From positions 186,001 to 250,000 of the forward strand of contig NZ_FNIR01000006.1 in assembly GCF_900103975.1 (NCBI RefSeq): DNA of 64,000 nt, written 5' to 3'. Every line of letters starts with the position of its first letter. The first letter of the stretch is position 1. Below are positions 23,878-51,395 of the stretch, piece by piece. This DNA comes from Klenkia soli (GTDB lineage: Bacteria > Actinomycetota > Actinomycetes > Mycobacteriales > Geodermatophilaceae). Below the pieces are notes generated by a model. It saw nothing but the letters and a program-made list of their open reading frames with translations. It was not told where the DNA came from and did not search any database. Both the position numbers and the translations under genes were made by a program.

Positions 23878-23906
23878 TCCGCGGACCATCCCGTGATCGG
23901 GAGGCG

Positions 23907-24953
23907 TCACCGGTAGACCGTGCCCATGGCCTCGCGGACCTGGTCGAGGGTGGCCTGGGCCAGGGCGTTCGCGTGCGCGTTGCCGTCGGCCAGCACCCCC
24001 AGCAGGTACCCCGGGTCGGCGGCCAGCTCCCGGCGGCGCGCCCGCAGCCCGCGGAACCGCTCGTTCACCGCCTCGGCGACCAGCGCCTTGAGCGCGGCGG
24101 CACCGTCGAGCCCCACGGCCAGGTCGGCGGGGTCGCGGTCGGTGCACAGGGCGGCCAGCTCGAGCAGCGTGGCCACGCCCGGCCGGGTGGCCGGCTCGTA
24201 GGTGATGTCCCGCCGGCCGTCGGTCAGCGCGCCGCGGACGGCCCGGACGGTGGTGTCCTCGTCGTCCCGGAGCCGGATGGTGTTGCCCCGGCTCTTGCTC
24301 ATCTTGTGGCCGTCCAGCCCCAGGAGTAGCGGGGTGTCGCTGAGCAGGGCGTCCGGTGCCTCGAAGACGGGGGAGTAGCGGGCCCCGAAGCGGCGGGCGA
24401 CGTCCCGGGTCACCTCCAGGTGCGGCAGCTGGTCCCGACCCACCGGCACCAGGTTCGCGCCGCAGAACAGGATGTCCGCGGCCTGGTGCACCGGGTAGGT
24501 GAGCATCAGCCCCGAGACGGTGCGCCCGTGGGTGGCCTCGACCTCGTCCTTCACGGTGGGGTTGCGCTCCAGCTCGGCGACGCTGACCAGGCTGAGGAAG
24601 GGCAGCAGCAGCTGGTTGAGCGCGGGGACGGCGCTGTGGGCGAAGACCGGCGTGCGGGCCGGGTCGATGCCCGCGGCGAGCTGGTCGGCCAGCAGGTCCA
24701 GCACCGACGCGCGCAGGTCGCCGGGGTCGTCGCGGTCGGTGATCACCTGGTAGTCGGCGACCACGAGCAGCACCTGGACACCGAGGTCCTGCAACCGGAC
24801 CCGGTTGGCCAGGGTCCCGAAGTAGTGGCCCAGGTGCAGGGCGCCGGTGGGCCGGTCGCCGGTCAGCACCCGGTACCGGTCCGGGTGCAGGCGCAGGTCG
24901 GCCTCGACCTCCGCGGAGCGGGTGGCGGCCTGGTGGAACGAGGAGTCGTGCAC
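23907..24953 (-). CDS. trpS: Tryptophanyl-tRNA synthetase, probably the auxiliary type under attenuation control
   Basis: A 348-residue class I synthetase that charges tRNA-Trp. The HIGH motif is TGALHLGHYFGT and the KMSKS motif is GHKMSKSRGN. The N-terminal sequence RVLTGDRPTGALHLGHY differs from the housekeeping type (usually SGVKPTG... or SGIQPSG...). It resembles the second, antibiotic-insensitive TrpRS described in Streptomyces (established knowledge; class membership here is inference). ATG 24953 has AGGAG at 24963-24959. It is preceded by a tandem-Trp leader peptide and competing stems, so expression probably rises when charged tRNA-Trp is scarce. Together with the next PH-like gene it interrupts the conserved CDA-like-era order on the opposite strand. 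Confidence 0.92.
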   Translation of the reverse strand: MHDSSFHQAATRSAEVEADLRLHPDRYRVLTGDRPTGALHLGHYFGTLANRVRLQDLGVQVLLVVADYQVITDRDDPGDLRASVLDLLADQLAAGIDPARTPVFAHSAVPALNQLLLPFLSLVSVAELERNPTVKDEVEATHGRTVSGLMLTYPVHQAADILFCGANLVPVGRDQLPHLEVTRDVARRFGARYSPVFEAPDALLSDTPLLLGLDGHKMSKSRGNTIRLRDDEDTTVRAVRGALTDGRRDITYEPATRPGVATLLELAALCTDRDPADLAVGLDGAAALKALVAEAVNERFRGLRARRRELAADPGYLLGVLADGNAHANALAQATLDQVREAMGTVYR

Positions 24954-24973
24954 GGTGCTCTCCTGGGTGGAGG

Positions 24974-25017
24974 GAGCTGCCCGTGGCGGGGTCCTGCGAG
25001 CTGCCGACGGGCAGCTC
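24974..25017 (-). promoter_or_regulatory. Attenuator stems between the trp leader peptide and trpS
   Basis: In transcript order: GAGCTGCC (25017-25010), a 4-base loop, GGCAGCTC (25005-24998, pairing perfectly with the first and extendable to 9 bp), then a second GGCAGCTC (24981-24974) that could replace it. Upstream, the leader codons TGG-CAG-CT also contain GGCAGCT, which can pair with AGCTGCC of the first arm. One segment thus has three mutually exclusive partners, one of them covered by a ribosome stalled at the Trp codons. This is the logic of ribosome-mediated attenuation. Confidence 0.7.
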
Positions 25018-25030
25018 GGGACGGGTCAGG

Positions 25031-25078
25031 TCACAGCTGCGCGAGCAGCTGCCACCAGGTGGTCGGTCGGGCGAACAC
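25031..25078 (-). CDS. trpS leader peptide MFARPTTWWQLLAQL
   Basis: GTG 25078 to TGA 25033-25031 encodes 15 residues with two adjacent Trp codons (TGG TGG at 25057-25052) in the middle. The stop lies 77 nt before the trpS ATG. Two consecutive tryptophans in so short a peptide upstream of a Trp-tRNA synthetase are not expected by chance. No Shine-Dalgarno is visible. TAGCCT followed by exactly six bases and GTG fits a leaderless message starting at the first base of the peptide codon. Confidence 0.8.
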   Translation of the reverse strand: MFARPTTWWQLLAQL

Positions 25079-25082
25079 GCGG

Positions 25083-25679
25083 TCAGGCTAGCGGGCGGTC
25101 CAGGGCGTCGGCGAACGCCTCGGCGTCGCGGACCCAGATCGTGAAGGCCCGGTCCTGCACGCCGTCCGTGCCCAGGTGCCGGACGACGACCCGGGTGCGA
25201 CCGGGCCACCAGCCCCCGCGCCGCTTGGCCCGCGGCCAGCCCGCCGGCGCGGGGGCGACCACGACGTCCTCGACGAGGACCAGCGGCACGATGCCGAACG
25301 ACGAGGTCTGGCGCAGCCCCGCGATGTCGTTGGACACCGCGGCGTCCGAGACGGTGAACCGGCTGGTGGCCAGCACGAGGACGGCGAGACCCAGCCCGAC
25401 GGCCAGCGGCACCTCGTCCTGCGCCGCCGGCCAACCGCTGATCAGCCCCAGCGCGACCAGCCAGACCACGACGGCGGCGACGGTGGCCAGCGCGACCCCC
25501 GGGCTGACCGCGACGTACTGCCAGTACCGCAACGGCGCCGGGACGACGGTGACCGACCGCTTGGGGCCGCGGCGGGCGAGGAACCCGTAGCTGGTGACCT
25601 GGCTGATGTGCCGCTCCCGGTCGCGGGCGGCGCGCACCGCGGGCGGCTCCTCGTTCGGGCGTCGGGTTCGGCGGGCCAT
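25083..25679 (-). CDS. PH-domain membrane protein of unknown function
   Basis: A 198-residue protein (ATG 25679; ATG 25688, three codons earlier, is possible). A basic N-terminal stretch MARRTRRPNEEPPAV is followed by two membrane helices (GVALATVAAVVVWLVALGLI and VPLAVGLGLAVLVLAT). A bacterial PH-like region follows, with FTVSDAAVSNDIAGLRQTSS and IVPLVLVEDVVVAPAP. It ends with an AFTIWVRDAEAFADAL segment, typical of actinobacterial YdbT/DUF3093-like proteins. It lies just upstream of the trpS leader on the same strand and diverges from era. The role is unknown. Confidence 0.65.
   Translation of the reverse strand: MARRTRRPNEEPPAVRAARDRERHISQVTSYGFLARRGPKRSVTVVPAPLRYWQYVAVSPGVALATVAAVVVWLVALGLISGWPAAQDEVPLAVGLGLAVLVLATSRFTVSDAAVSNDIAGLRQTSSFGIVPLVLVEDVVVAPAPAGWPRAKRRGGWWPGRTRVVVRHLGTDGVQDRAFTIWVRDAEAFADALDRPLA
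25085..25090 (-). promoter_or_regulatory. -10 element TAGCCT for a leaderless trpS leader transcript
   Basis: On the minus strand TAGCCT is followed by six bases (GACCGC) and then the leader-peptide GTG, the classical spacing of actinobacterial leaderless promoters (TANNNT-N6-purine start). The hexamer overlaps the last codons of the upstream PH-like gene. No good TTGACA is seen at the -35 position. Confidence 0.55.
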
Positions 25680-51322: not shown

Positions 51323-51395
51323 TCCCCCGTAGCTCAATTGGCAGAGCATTCGACTGTTAATCGAACGGTTTCTGGTTCGAGTCCAGACGGGGGAG
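51323..51395 (+). tRNA. tRNA-Asn (anticodon GTT)
   Basis: A 73-nt tRNA with encoded CCA (51396-51398). The acceptor stem TCCCCCG (51323-51329) pairs with CGGGGGA (51388-51394) and the discriminator is G51395. The D-arm contains AGCTCAATTGGCAGAGC. The anticodon loop CTGTTAA has GTT at 51356-51358, the correct position 34. The T-arm is CTGG-TTCGAGT-CCAG. A -10-like TAATCT ends 20 nt upstream, and a terminator hairpin follows. Confidence 0.97.

Follow-up and report, generated by a model that had tools for sequence, protein, structure and literature searches.

A tryptophan (Trp) attenuator placed before an auxiliary tryptophanyl-tRNA synthetase (TrpRS) gene is a kind of regulatory element already known from Streptomyces. 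Ribosome-mediated transcriptional attenuation of an auxiliary antibiotic-resistant TrpRS gene is the subject given in the title of Vecchione and Sello 2010 (J Bacteriol 192:3565; listed in the references of PMC4787780), and in the excerpted text of Seliverstov et al. 2005 a classical Trp attenuator is predicted before the second trpS gene, trpS2, of S. avermitilis (PMC1262725). For S. lividans TK24, the sections seen of PMC8079986 describe two leaderless leader genes, trpL1 (MFAHSTRNWWWTAHPAAH) and trpL2 (MMTRTCTQLWRAA), located before trpE and trpS, respectively. TrpRS II is described, in an excerpt of PMC9437257, as a second, inducible TrpRS and is mentioned together with nitric oxide synthase and radiation damage. 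Here, we analyse a 64,000-nucleotide stretch of the Klenkia soli contig NZ_FNIR01000006.1 (termed “the window”), in which a short leader open reading frame (ORF) with tandem Trp codons and a series of competing RNA segments precede an auxiliary trpS gene on the minus strand. With a probability of roughly 85%, we read this leader as a classical-order, ribosome-mediated Trp attenuator that controls the auxiliary TrpRS.

The leader frame runs GTG TTC GCC CGA CCG ACC ACC TGG TGG CAG CTG CTC GCG CAG CTG TGA (25078 to 25031, minus strand) and comprises 15 codons, with the GTG at 25078-25076, the TGA at 25033-25031 and 77 nt between the stop and the GTG of trpS (24953). The leader thus contains the short ORF expected for attenuators of this kind, in which codons for the regulating amino acid stand side by side; its translation is predicted. 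A first-pass annotation of the same DNA had reported the 15-codon frame, the adjacent TGG codons and the spacing of 77 nt, all of which agree with the coordinates as re-read; the start of its range (24907) falls inside trpS and not upstream. Six short ORFs with two adjacent Trp codons (WW) occur on both strands of the window, and the leader ORF alone is preceded by a TANNNT box at 6-7 nt. This spacing implies a leaderless leader mRNA: the transcript would start at or very near the leader GTG, and leader translation would begin on a leaderless 5' end. Since the box, TAGCCT, shares bases with the stop codon of the preceding gene, transcripts may also read through from there.

The gene behind the leader matches the TrpRS family TIGR00233 with 232.5-232.7 bits (cut-off 176.75) and also PF00579. 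The second TrpRS that the first-pass annotation had implied, and proposed to look for, was found by a genome search: a canonical trpS, the sole other copy, is located on a different contig (G000:C20; TIGR00233, 352.2 bits). The two enzymes are 37% identical (tblastn), and the scan of upstream regions did not find a WW leader before the canonical gene. The best solved match of the auxiliary enzyme is the TrpRS 1yi8 (E 2.5e-67), followed by 2a4m, “Tryptophanyl-tRNA synthetase II”; both are Deinococcus radiodurans TrpRS II. The canonical copy is closest to 7el8. The motif VVDLHAIT of the canonical copy corresponds to VVADYQVIT in the auxiliary enzyme, with Q replacing H. In Bacillus stearothermophilus, the exchange of His43 for Asn gives indolmycin resistance (excerpt of PMC4899734). 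The H of the canonical copy presumably corresponds to this position 43; indolmycin resistance of the auxiliary copy is putative. From its leader, the auxiliary TrpRS is predicted to be inducible.

The complementary segments noted in the first-pass annotation are present as described: GAGCTGCC at 25017-25010, GGCAGCTC twice (25005-24998 and 24981-24974), and GGCAGCT (25053-25047), which overlaps the second Trp codon. The doubt raised there, that they may not follow the classical 1:2/3:4 scheme, is lifted by a segment that had been overlooked. GCAGCTG (25040-25034), situated at the 3' end of the leader ORF, forms hairpin 1:2 with the Trp-codon segment, and once this segment 2 is recognised, the classical order 1:2, 2:3, 3:4 fits. 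The switch proposed instead, one arm with three possible partners, was therefore rejected as the primary, non-classical mechanism and retained as an added layer: the extra partner (24984-24974) is real, yet in the group of leaders to which the window belongs it forms part of a hairpin over the ribosome-binding site of trpS. The pairings 1:2, 2:3 and 3:4 overlap, and the Trp codons are located in segment 1; 2:3 is weak in the window's group. Folding of the 128-nt leader yields -63.3 kcal/mol compared to a shuffle mean of -48.3 (z -4.1; none of 200 shuffles as stable), and the predicted structure comprises hairpins 1:2 and 3:4, one over the Shine-Dalgarno (SD) sequence of trpS, and a short hairpin at the 5' end. 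Both 1:2 and 3:4 of the window lie at the floor of 20 shuffles. A T-box or another Rfam element was considered as the identity of the leader and rejected: no T-box match was found, the sole match above gathering score in the window is a tRNA (51323-51395, plus strand), and the four matches at E ≤10 over 24900-25120 all belong to microRNA or long non-coding RNA families.

With ample Trp-tRNA, the ribosome would reach the leader stop and cover segment 2, hairpin 3:4 would form, in the window's group as a terminator without a U-tract, and expression would be low. If starvation or a TrpRS inhibitor (e.g. indolmycin) makes charged tRNA-Trp scarce, the ribosome would stall on the tandem Trp codons and cover segment 1, leaving segment 2 free to pair with the emerging segment 3; 3:4 would be delayed and trpS made. 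A further hairpin over the trpS SD may add a translational layer. In the model, a ribosome placed at the first Trp codon, 17 nt from segment 2, covers segment 1 with its footprint and leaves segment 2 free, and if the RNA is made to just before segment 4, pairing 2:3 forms with a probability (P) of 0.94. With the ribosome at the stop codon, segment 2 is covered and segment 3 starts 12 nt downstream, which matches how far, according to an excerpt of PMC4833913, a ribosome positioned on a stop codon reaches.

To assess the recurrence of this arrangement, homologues were collected by a scan of genome contigs, of which the best 80 of at least 509 confirmed matches were kept, and by further searches with matches in 16 of 97 relatives, 46 of 394 class-level genomes (loci were made from 30 places, one of them in the window), 4 of 112 genomes of the family and 40 of 81 genomes of a different family (again 30 places taken as loci). 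Without L001, L002 and L018 (L numbers denote loci), the set comprises 152 loci, 150 of them distinct; since best matches were selected, the sample is biased towards close matches. Family searches to enlarge the window's group contributed one new member, L128, and two further searches added none. A WW short ORF is located upstream in 74 of the 150 distinct loci (73 by the slightly different scan used for the shuffle control), and in 70 of the 74 a TANNNT box precedes the leader start by 4-10 nt (6 nt in 51, 7 nt in 17 and 9 nt in 2). Shuffled upstream regions carry a WW ORF in 0.7% of cases and a WW ORF with a box at 6-7 nt in 0 of 3000. Leader and stems hence recur upstream of homologous trpS genes, with the WW ORF at about half of the loci, and the anatomy, the second trpS and this recurrence together bear out the layout of ribosome-mediated attenuation suggested by the first-pass annotation. 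GC-rich DNA readily forms stable hairpins, and with six WW short ORFs in the window the leader might in principle be a chance ORF accompanied by hairpins without a regulatory role. The occurrence of WW ORF plus box in 70/150 loci versus 0/3000 shuffles, the fold z of -4.1 and hairpins beyond those of shuffled leaders contradict this explanation, the likelihood of which we consider negligible.

The leader was then related to trpS copy number. For 80 of the then 125 loci, 79 genomes were searched with TIGR00233, and a copy was termed canonical at a best E of 1e-90 or better; L017, with trpS fragments only, was left unclassed. A canonical copy is present in 33 genomes, and a WW ORF precedes the auxiliary homologue in 29 of these, with a box in 27. 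Two more, L013 and L104, have a Trp-X-Trp leader instead of WW. The association between leader and canonical copy yields a Fisher p of 2e-9 for the WW ORF and 1e-8 for the ORF with box, values uncorrected for relatedness. The leader therefore mostly marks the auxiliary copy, yet it occurs also where no other copy was found. In L021, L025, L029, L033, L063, L071, L076 and L122, a WW leader with box precedes the only trpS match found in the genome, and in these eight an attenuation of the housekeeping TrpRS is possible; L042 has a WW ORF, but neither a box nor a canonical copy. As a side observation, L086 (record Jiangella rhizosphaerae) and L116 (family f34) share an identical upstream region and near-identical contig coordinates, and may be one genome; the organism label of L086 may be mistaken.

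The coordinates of the features are collected in Table 1.

Table 1. Elements of the trpS leader region and its surroundings (window positions).
Feature	Positions	Strand	Basis
Leader ORF, GTG start, MFARPTTWWQLLAQL, stop TGA	25031..25078	minus	read from sequence; WW leaders at homologues
Tandem Trp codons TGG TGG, presumed regulatory	25052..25057	minus	sequence; recur at homologues
Putative -10 box TAGCCT, 6 nt 5' of leader start	25085..25090	minus	sequence; recurrence of TANNNT at homologue leaders
Segment 1 (GGTGGCAGCTGC), 5' arm of hairpin 1:2, takes in most of the Trp codons	25045..25056	minus	segment dissection, folding
Segment 2 (GCAGCTGTGACC), 3' arm of 1:2, extends across leader stop; GCAGCT within it able to pair with segment 3	25029..25040	minus	
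Segment 3 (CGAGCTGCC), 5' arm of hairpin 3:4	25010..25018	minus	dissection, alignment, folding
Segment 4 (GGCAGCTCG), 3' arm of 3:4, a hairpin presumed to be a terminator but lacking a U-tract	24997..25005	minus	
Segment 5 (ACGGGCAGCTC), 11-nt complement of segment 3 and flank; 3' part inside SD hairpin	24974..24984	minus	
Hairpin 5:6 (GCTCCCT / AGG-A-GAGC) over trpS SD AGGAG (24964-24960)	24957..24977	minus	group-level support; window alone not significant
Auxiliary trpS, 348 amino acids, complete, HLGH and KMSKS motifs	23907..24953	minus	TIGR00233 match
Leader-plus-trpS stretch, junction +/- ~20 nt	23882..25082	minus	missing from 7 same-genus genomes with both flanks aligned

Mechanical dissection of 70 leaders, sorted by eye into groups A (the window's; 12), B (41), C (9; leaders ending WWLPS) and D (8; mostly genomes without a canonical copy), finds hairpin 3:4 in all 70, and in 69 a hairpin 1:2 whose start lies within 0-7 nt of the first Trp codon. 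The exception is L122, whose best 1:2 does not coincide with the Trp codons. Although the hairpins recur, their segments differ in sequence from group to group. Since a hairpin finder often succeeds in GC-rich RNA, a shuffle control was added: in every group mean, both hairpins are stronger than in shuffled leaders (group A: 3:4, -16.7 vs -9.2; 1:2, -15.4 vs -5.7 kcal/mol). A p ≤0.1 is reached by 3:4 in 10/12, 39/41, 9/9 and 7/8 leaders of groups A to D and by 1:2 in 9/12, 31/41, 9/9 and 3/8, respectively. Pairing 2:3, with energies from -7.2 to -22.4 across the dissected leaders, exceeds that of scrambled arms in the four groups (-11.9 vs -8.9, -16.7 vs -10.2, -17.5 vs -11.3 and -13.7 vs -9.1). 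Compared to cross-group pairing, 2:3 is clearly better in B and C, a little better in D and not better in A. The position of segment 2 also varies: relative to the first stop-codon base, the 3' arm of 1:2 ends between 2 nt upstream and 5 nt downstream in group A, 7-14 nt downstream in B (L140: 9 upstream) and 8-11 nt downstream in C.

Within group A, the Trp-X-Trp leaders L013 and L104, which lie outside the automatic sets, were included in an alignment (A1) and in a hand-placed set of 14 loci. As A1 misregisters the first arm, the arms were placed by hand, resulting in 126/135 standard pairs in 1:2 and 124/127 in 3:4; the proportion for 1:2 is a description and not a test. A shifted register in L052, L093 and L067 accounts for part of the apparent double changes in these arms. 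A second alignment (A2) of 11 of the 14 members leaves out these three loci, which use another 3:4 register. In A2, 100% of the 3:4 cells are paired, a value matched by 9 of 500 shuffles, and slid versions reach at most 51%.

Several findings weigh against the proposed attenuator. No WW leader of any sort is found at 76 of the 150 homologue loci, among genomes with a canonical copy it was not found at L010 and L112, and 9 of 45 genomes without a canonical copy do carry a WW ORF (L022 and L100 being apparently one genome). In A2, just two 3:4 pairs change on both sides, which is matched by 98 of 500 shuffles. In group A, 2:3 pairing (-11.9) gains nothing over pairing with a segment 3 taken from other groups (-11.8), and scrambling yields a median p of 0.105. 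In the window, 3:4 is far more stable than 2:3 (-16.7 vs -10.8), and with segment 4 present either 3:4 or 3:5 wins at equilibrium in 6/6 stalled states; the switch must therefore be kinetic and decided during transcription. Finally, the 9 nt after the window's 3:4 (CAGGACCCC) contain no T, and at least four U within 8 nt after 3:4 occur in 0/12 group A, 20/41 group B, 0/9 group C and 1/8 group D leaders, rendering termination at 3:4 in the window's group putative. Group C and S. lividans trpL2 also lack a U-tract, and thus membership in the actinobacterial kind of attenuator is compatible with its absence.

A 3:4 hairpin without a U-tract would also fit Rho-dependent attenuation, where leader translation governs whether Rho can reach the untranslated RNA downstream of the leader; the excerpted text of PMC1262725 suggests Rho as one possibility for terminator-less cys leader peptides of Mycobacterium. 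By this route, however, an early stall would expose more RNA to Rho and lower expression during starvation, which is the wrong direction for a TrpRS, and the paired segments would have no role. On these grounds of reasoning the involvement of Rho was rejected as highly improbable.

The missing U-tract is likewise in line with a translational attenuator, in which upon an upstream stall segment 3 pairs with 5 rather than 4, thereby opening the SD hairpin, and 3:4 is not a terminator. The SD test covered 67 leader loci (L008, L017 and L021 dropped out of 70) and 59 loci without a leader. Pairing of the SD with upstream bases amounts to 0.679 vs 0.541 shuffled for all leader loci (14 at p 0.05) and 0.488 vs 0.480 for loci without a leader (2 at p 0.05), and group A reaches a mean of 0.91 vs 0.60 over 12 loci with a combined p of 3e-6, inflated by relatedness. 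For the window by itself the SD hairpin is not significant (0.79 vs 0.64, p 0.26). Its 3:5 pairing is strong (-15.8 vs -8.5 shuffled, p 0.005) and attains P 0.58 in one stalled state; 3:5 is strong, too, in 8/9 group C loci, which are near-identical, but in group A p ≤0.05 is found in just 4/12 members, and part of the pairing follows from the anti-SD bases. Moreover, the outcome of the stalled states flips with 2 nt of footprint, and 3:5 also forms when the ribosome has reached the stop codon (P 0.70 at +14), leaving the direction of control ambiguous if it were translational. The U-tracts in 20 of the 41 group B leaders count against a purely translational switch as well. Taken together, we deem this explanation unlikely, and prefer attenuation in the classical order, which may act on transcription, on translation or on both; a second, translational layer at the SD is a possible addition.

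Other variants of the SD region were observed. The terminator 3' arm of L102, L109 and L110 (GGACGGCCC) complements GGGCCGTCC just 5' of trpS, and a cascade of 1:2-3:4-5:6 vs 2:3-4:5 is conceivable in these loci. As a general step to free the SD, pairing 4:5 was rejected: it is significant in these three (p 0.01, 0.005 and 0.005), but p 0.05 is reached in only 6/41 leaders of group B and 0/12 of group A. In group C (e.g. L113, L115 and L118), a near-invariant GACAGCTCTCGCGGTGG...GGAGAGC between 3:4 and trpS can form a stem over the SD.

The genomic context suggests that leader and gene belong together. Of 8 further genomes of the genus that were searched, 7 contain the upstream gene (25679-25083), for which neither Pfam nor NCBIfam gave a match at E 0.001, and none contains the auxiliary trpS. 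The aligned flanks lie 2-22 nt apart in L159, L161, L162 and L163, 106 and 119 nt in L158 and L160, and 550 nt in L157, where the upstream protein is 91% identical and the insert (2104-2655) holds a GNAT acetyltransferase gene (PF00583, 48.4 bits). The intergenic site thus carries different genes in different strains, leader plus trpS in the window and GNAT in L157. At 25090-25076 of the window, the putative promoter box covers the last codons and the stop of the upstream gene, and the cassette junction lies at or within the promoter; L157 has almost identical bases at the box position, with TG replacing TA. Four of the 112 family genomes carry the auxiliary trpS; each belongs to a different genus, and the genome of the window is among them. 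Searches with both neighbour proteins in the loci up to L155 (≤~1.5 kb of flank) match only the window's own copies L002 and L003, and hence the immediate neighbourhood differs in the other carriers. The tree places L005, a member of the family, with L019 (support 100/97), which is a metagenome bin labelled Streptosporangiaceae.

As leader and trpS are missing from 7/7 genomes that hold the upstream gene, they look like one acquired cassette, and judging from these alignments they were probably gained horizontally as a unit; repeated loss is a possible alternative. A more elaborate view combines a two-level attenuator with mobility: segment 3 would choose between 2, 4 and 5, a stalled ribosome would block the U-less 3:4 and also uncover the SD via 3:5 (or via 4:5 in L102, L109 and L110), and a switch-enzyme unit of ~1.2 kb would move between actinobacteria as a self-regulated cassette. 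This view in its entirety we regard as improbable.

The results suggest that Trp attenuators of the Streptomyces kind are widespread before auxiliary TrpRS genes of actinobacteria, usually alongside a canonical TrpRS, that they are leaderless as judged from promoter spacing, and that they are able to travel with their gene. On this basis, it may be predicted in which environmental actinobacteria a block of tryptophan charging would induce a spare TrpRS. The leader groups with and without U-tracts provide natural sets for asking whether U-less hairpins terminate transcription in these bacteria. Searches of an open-access library, together with the excerpts cited here, showed no account of this group of loci, the cassette or the SD hairpin.

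Compared to known systems, the group C leaders (...VWWLPS, family f34) appear to resemble the S. coelicolor trpRS1 attenuator, but the sole named f34 record is L086, Jiangella rhizosphaerae. Segment 2 is located after the stop codon in group C, but at the stop in the window's group. With S. coelicolor trpRS1 itself, compared by title only, the window shares an auxiliary TrpRS gene, in the window under probable attenuation, and with S. avermitilis trpS2, as excerpted, a predicted classical Trp attenuator before a second trpS. The GC-rich terminators described for trp operons in the excerpt of PMC1262725 possess a poly-U stretch, whereas the window has no U-tract. The enzyme's closest solved relative, 1yi8, is a TrpRS II, a class which the excerpted source describes in the context of nitric oxide synthase and radiation damage. 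Among the leaderless transcripts of S. lividans, trpL1 precedes trpE, a biosynthesis gene, and trpL2 contains a single Trp codon in contrast to the tandem codons of the window; yet trpL2, as described in the sections seen of PMC8079986, is followed by hairpins without a U-rich stretch, just as is the leader in the window.

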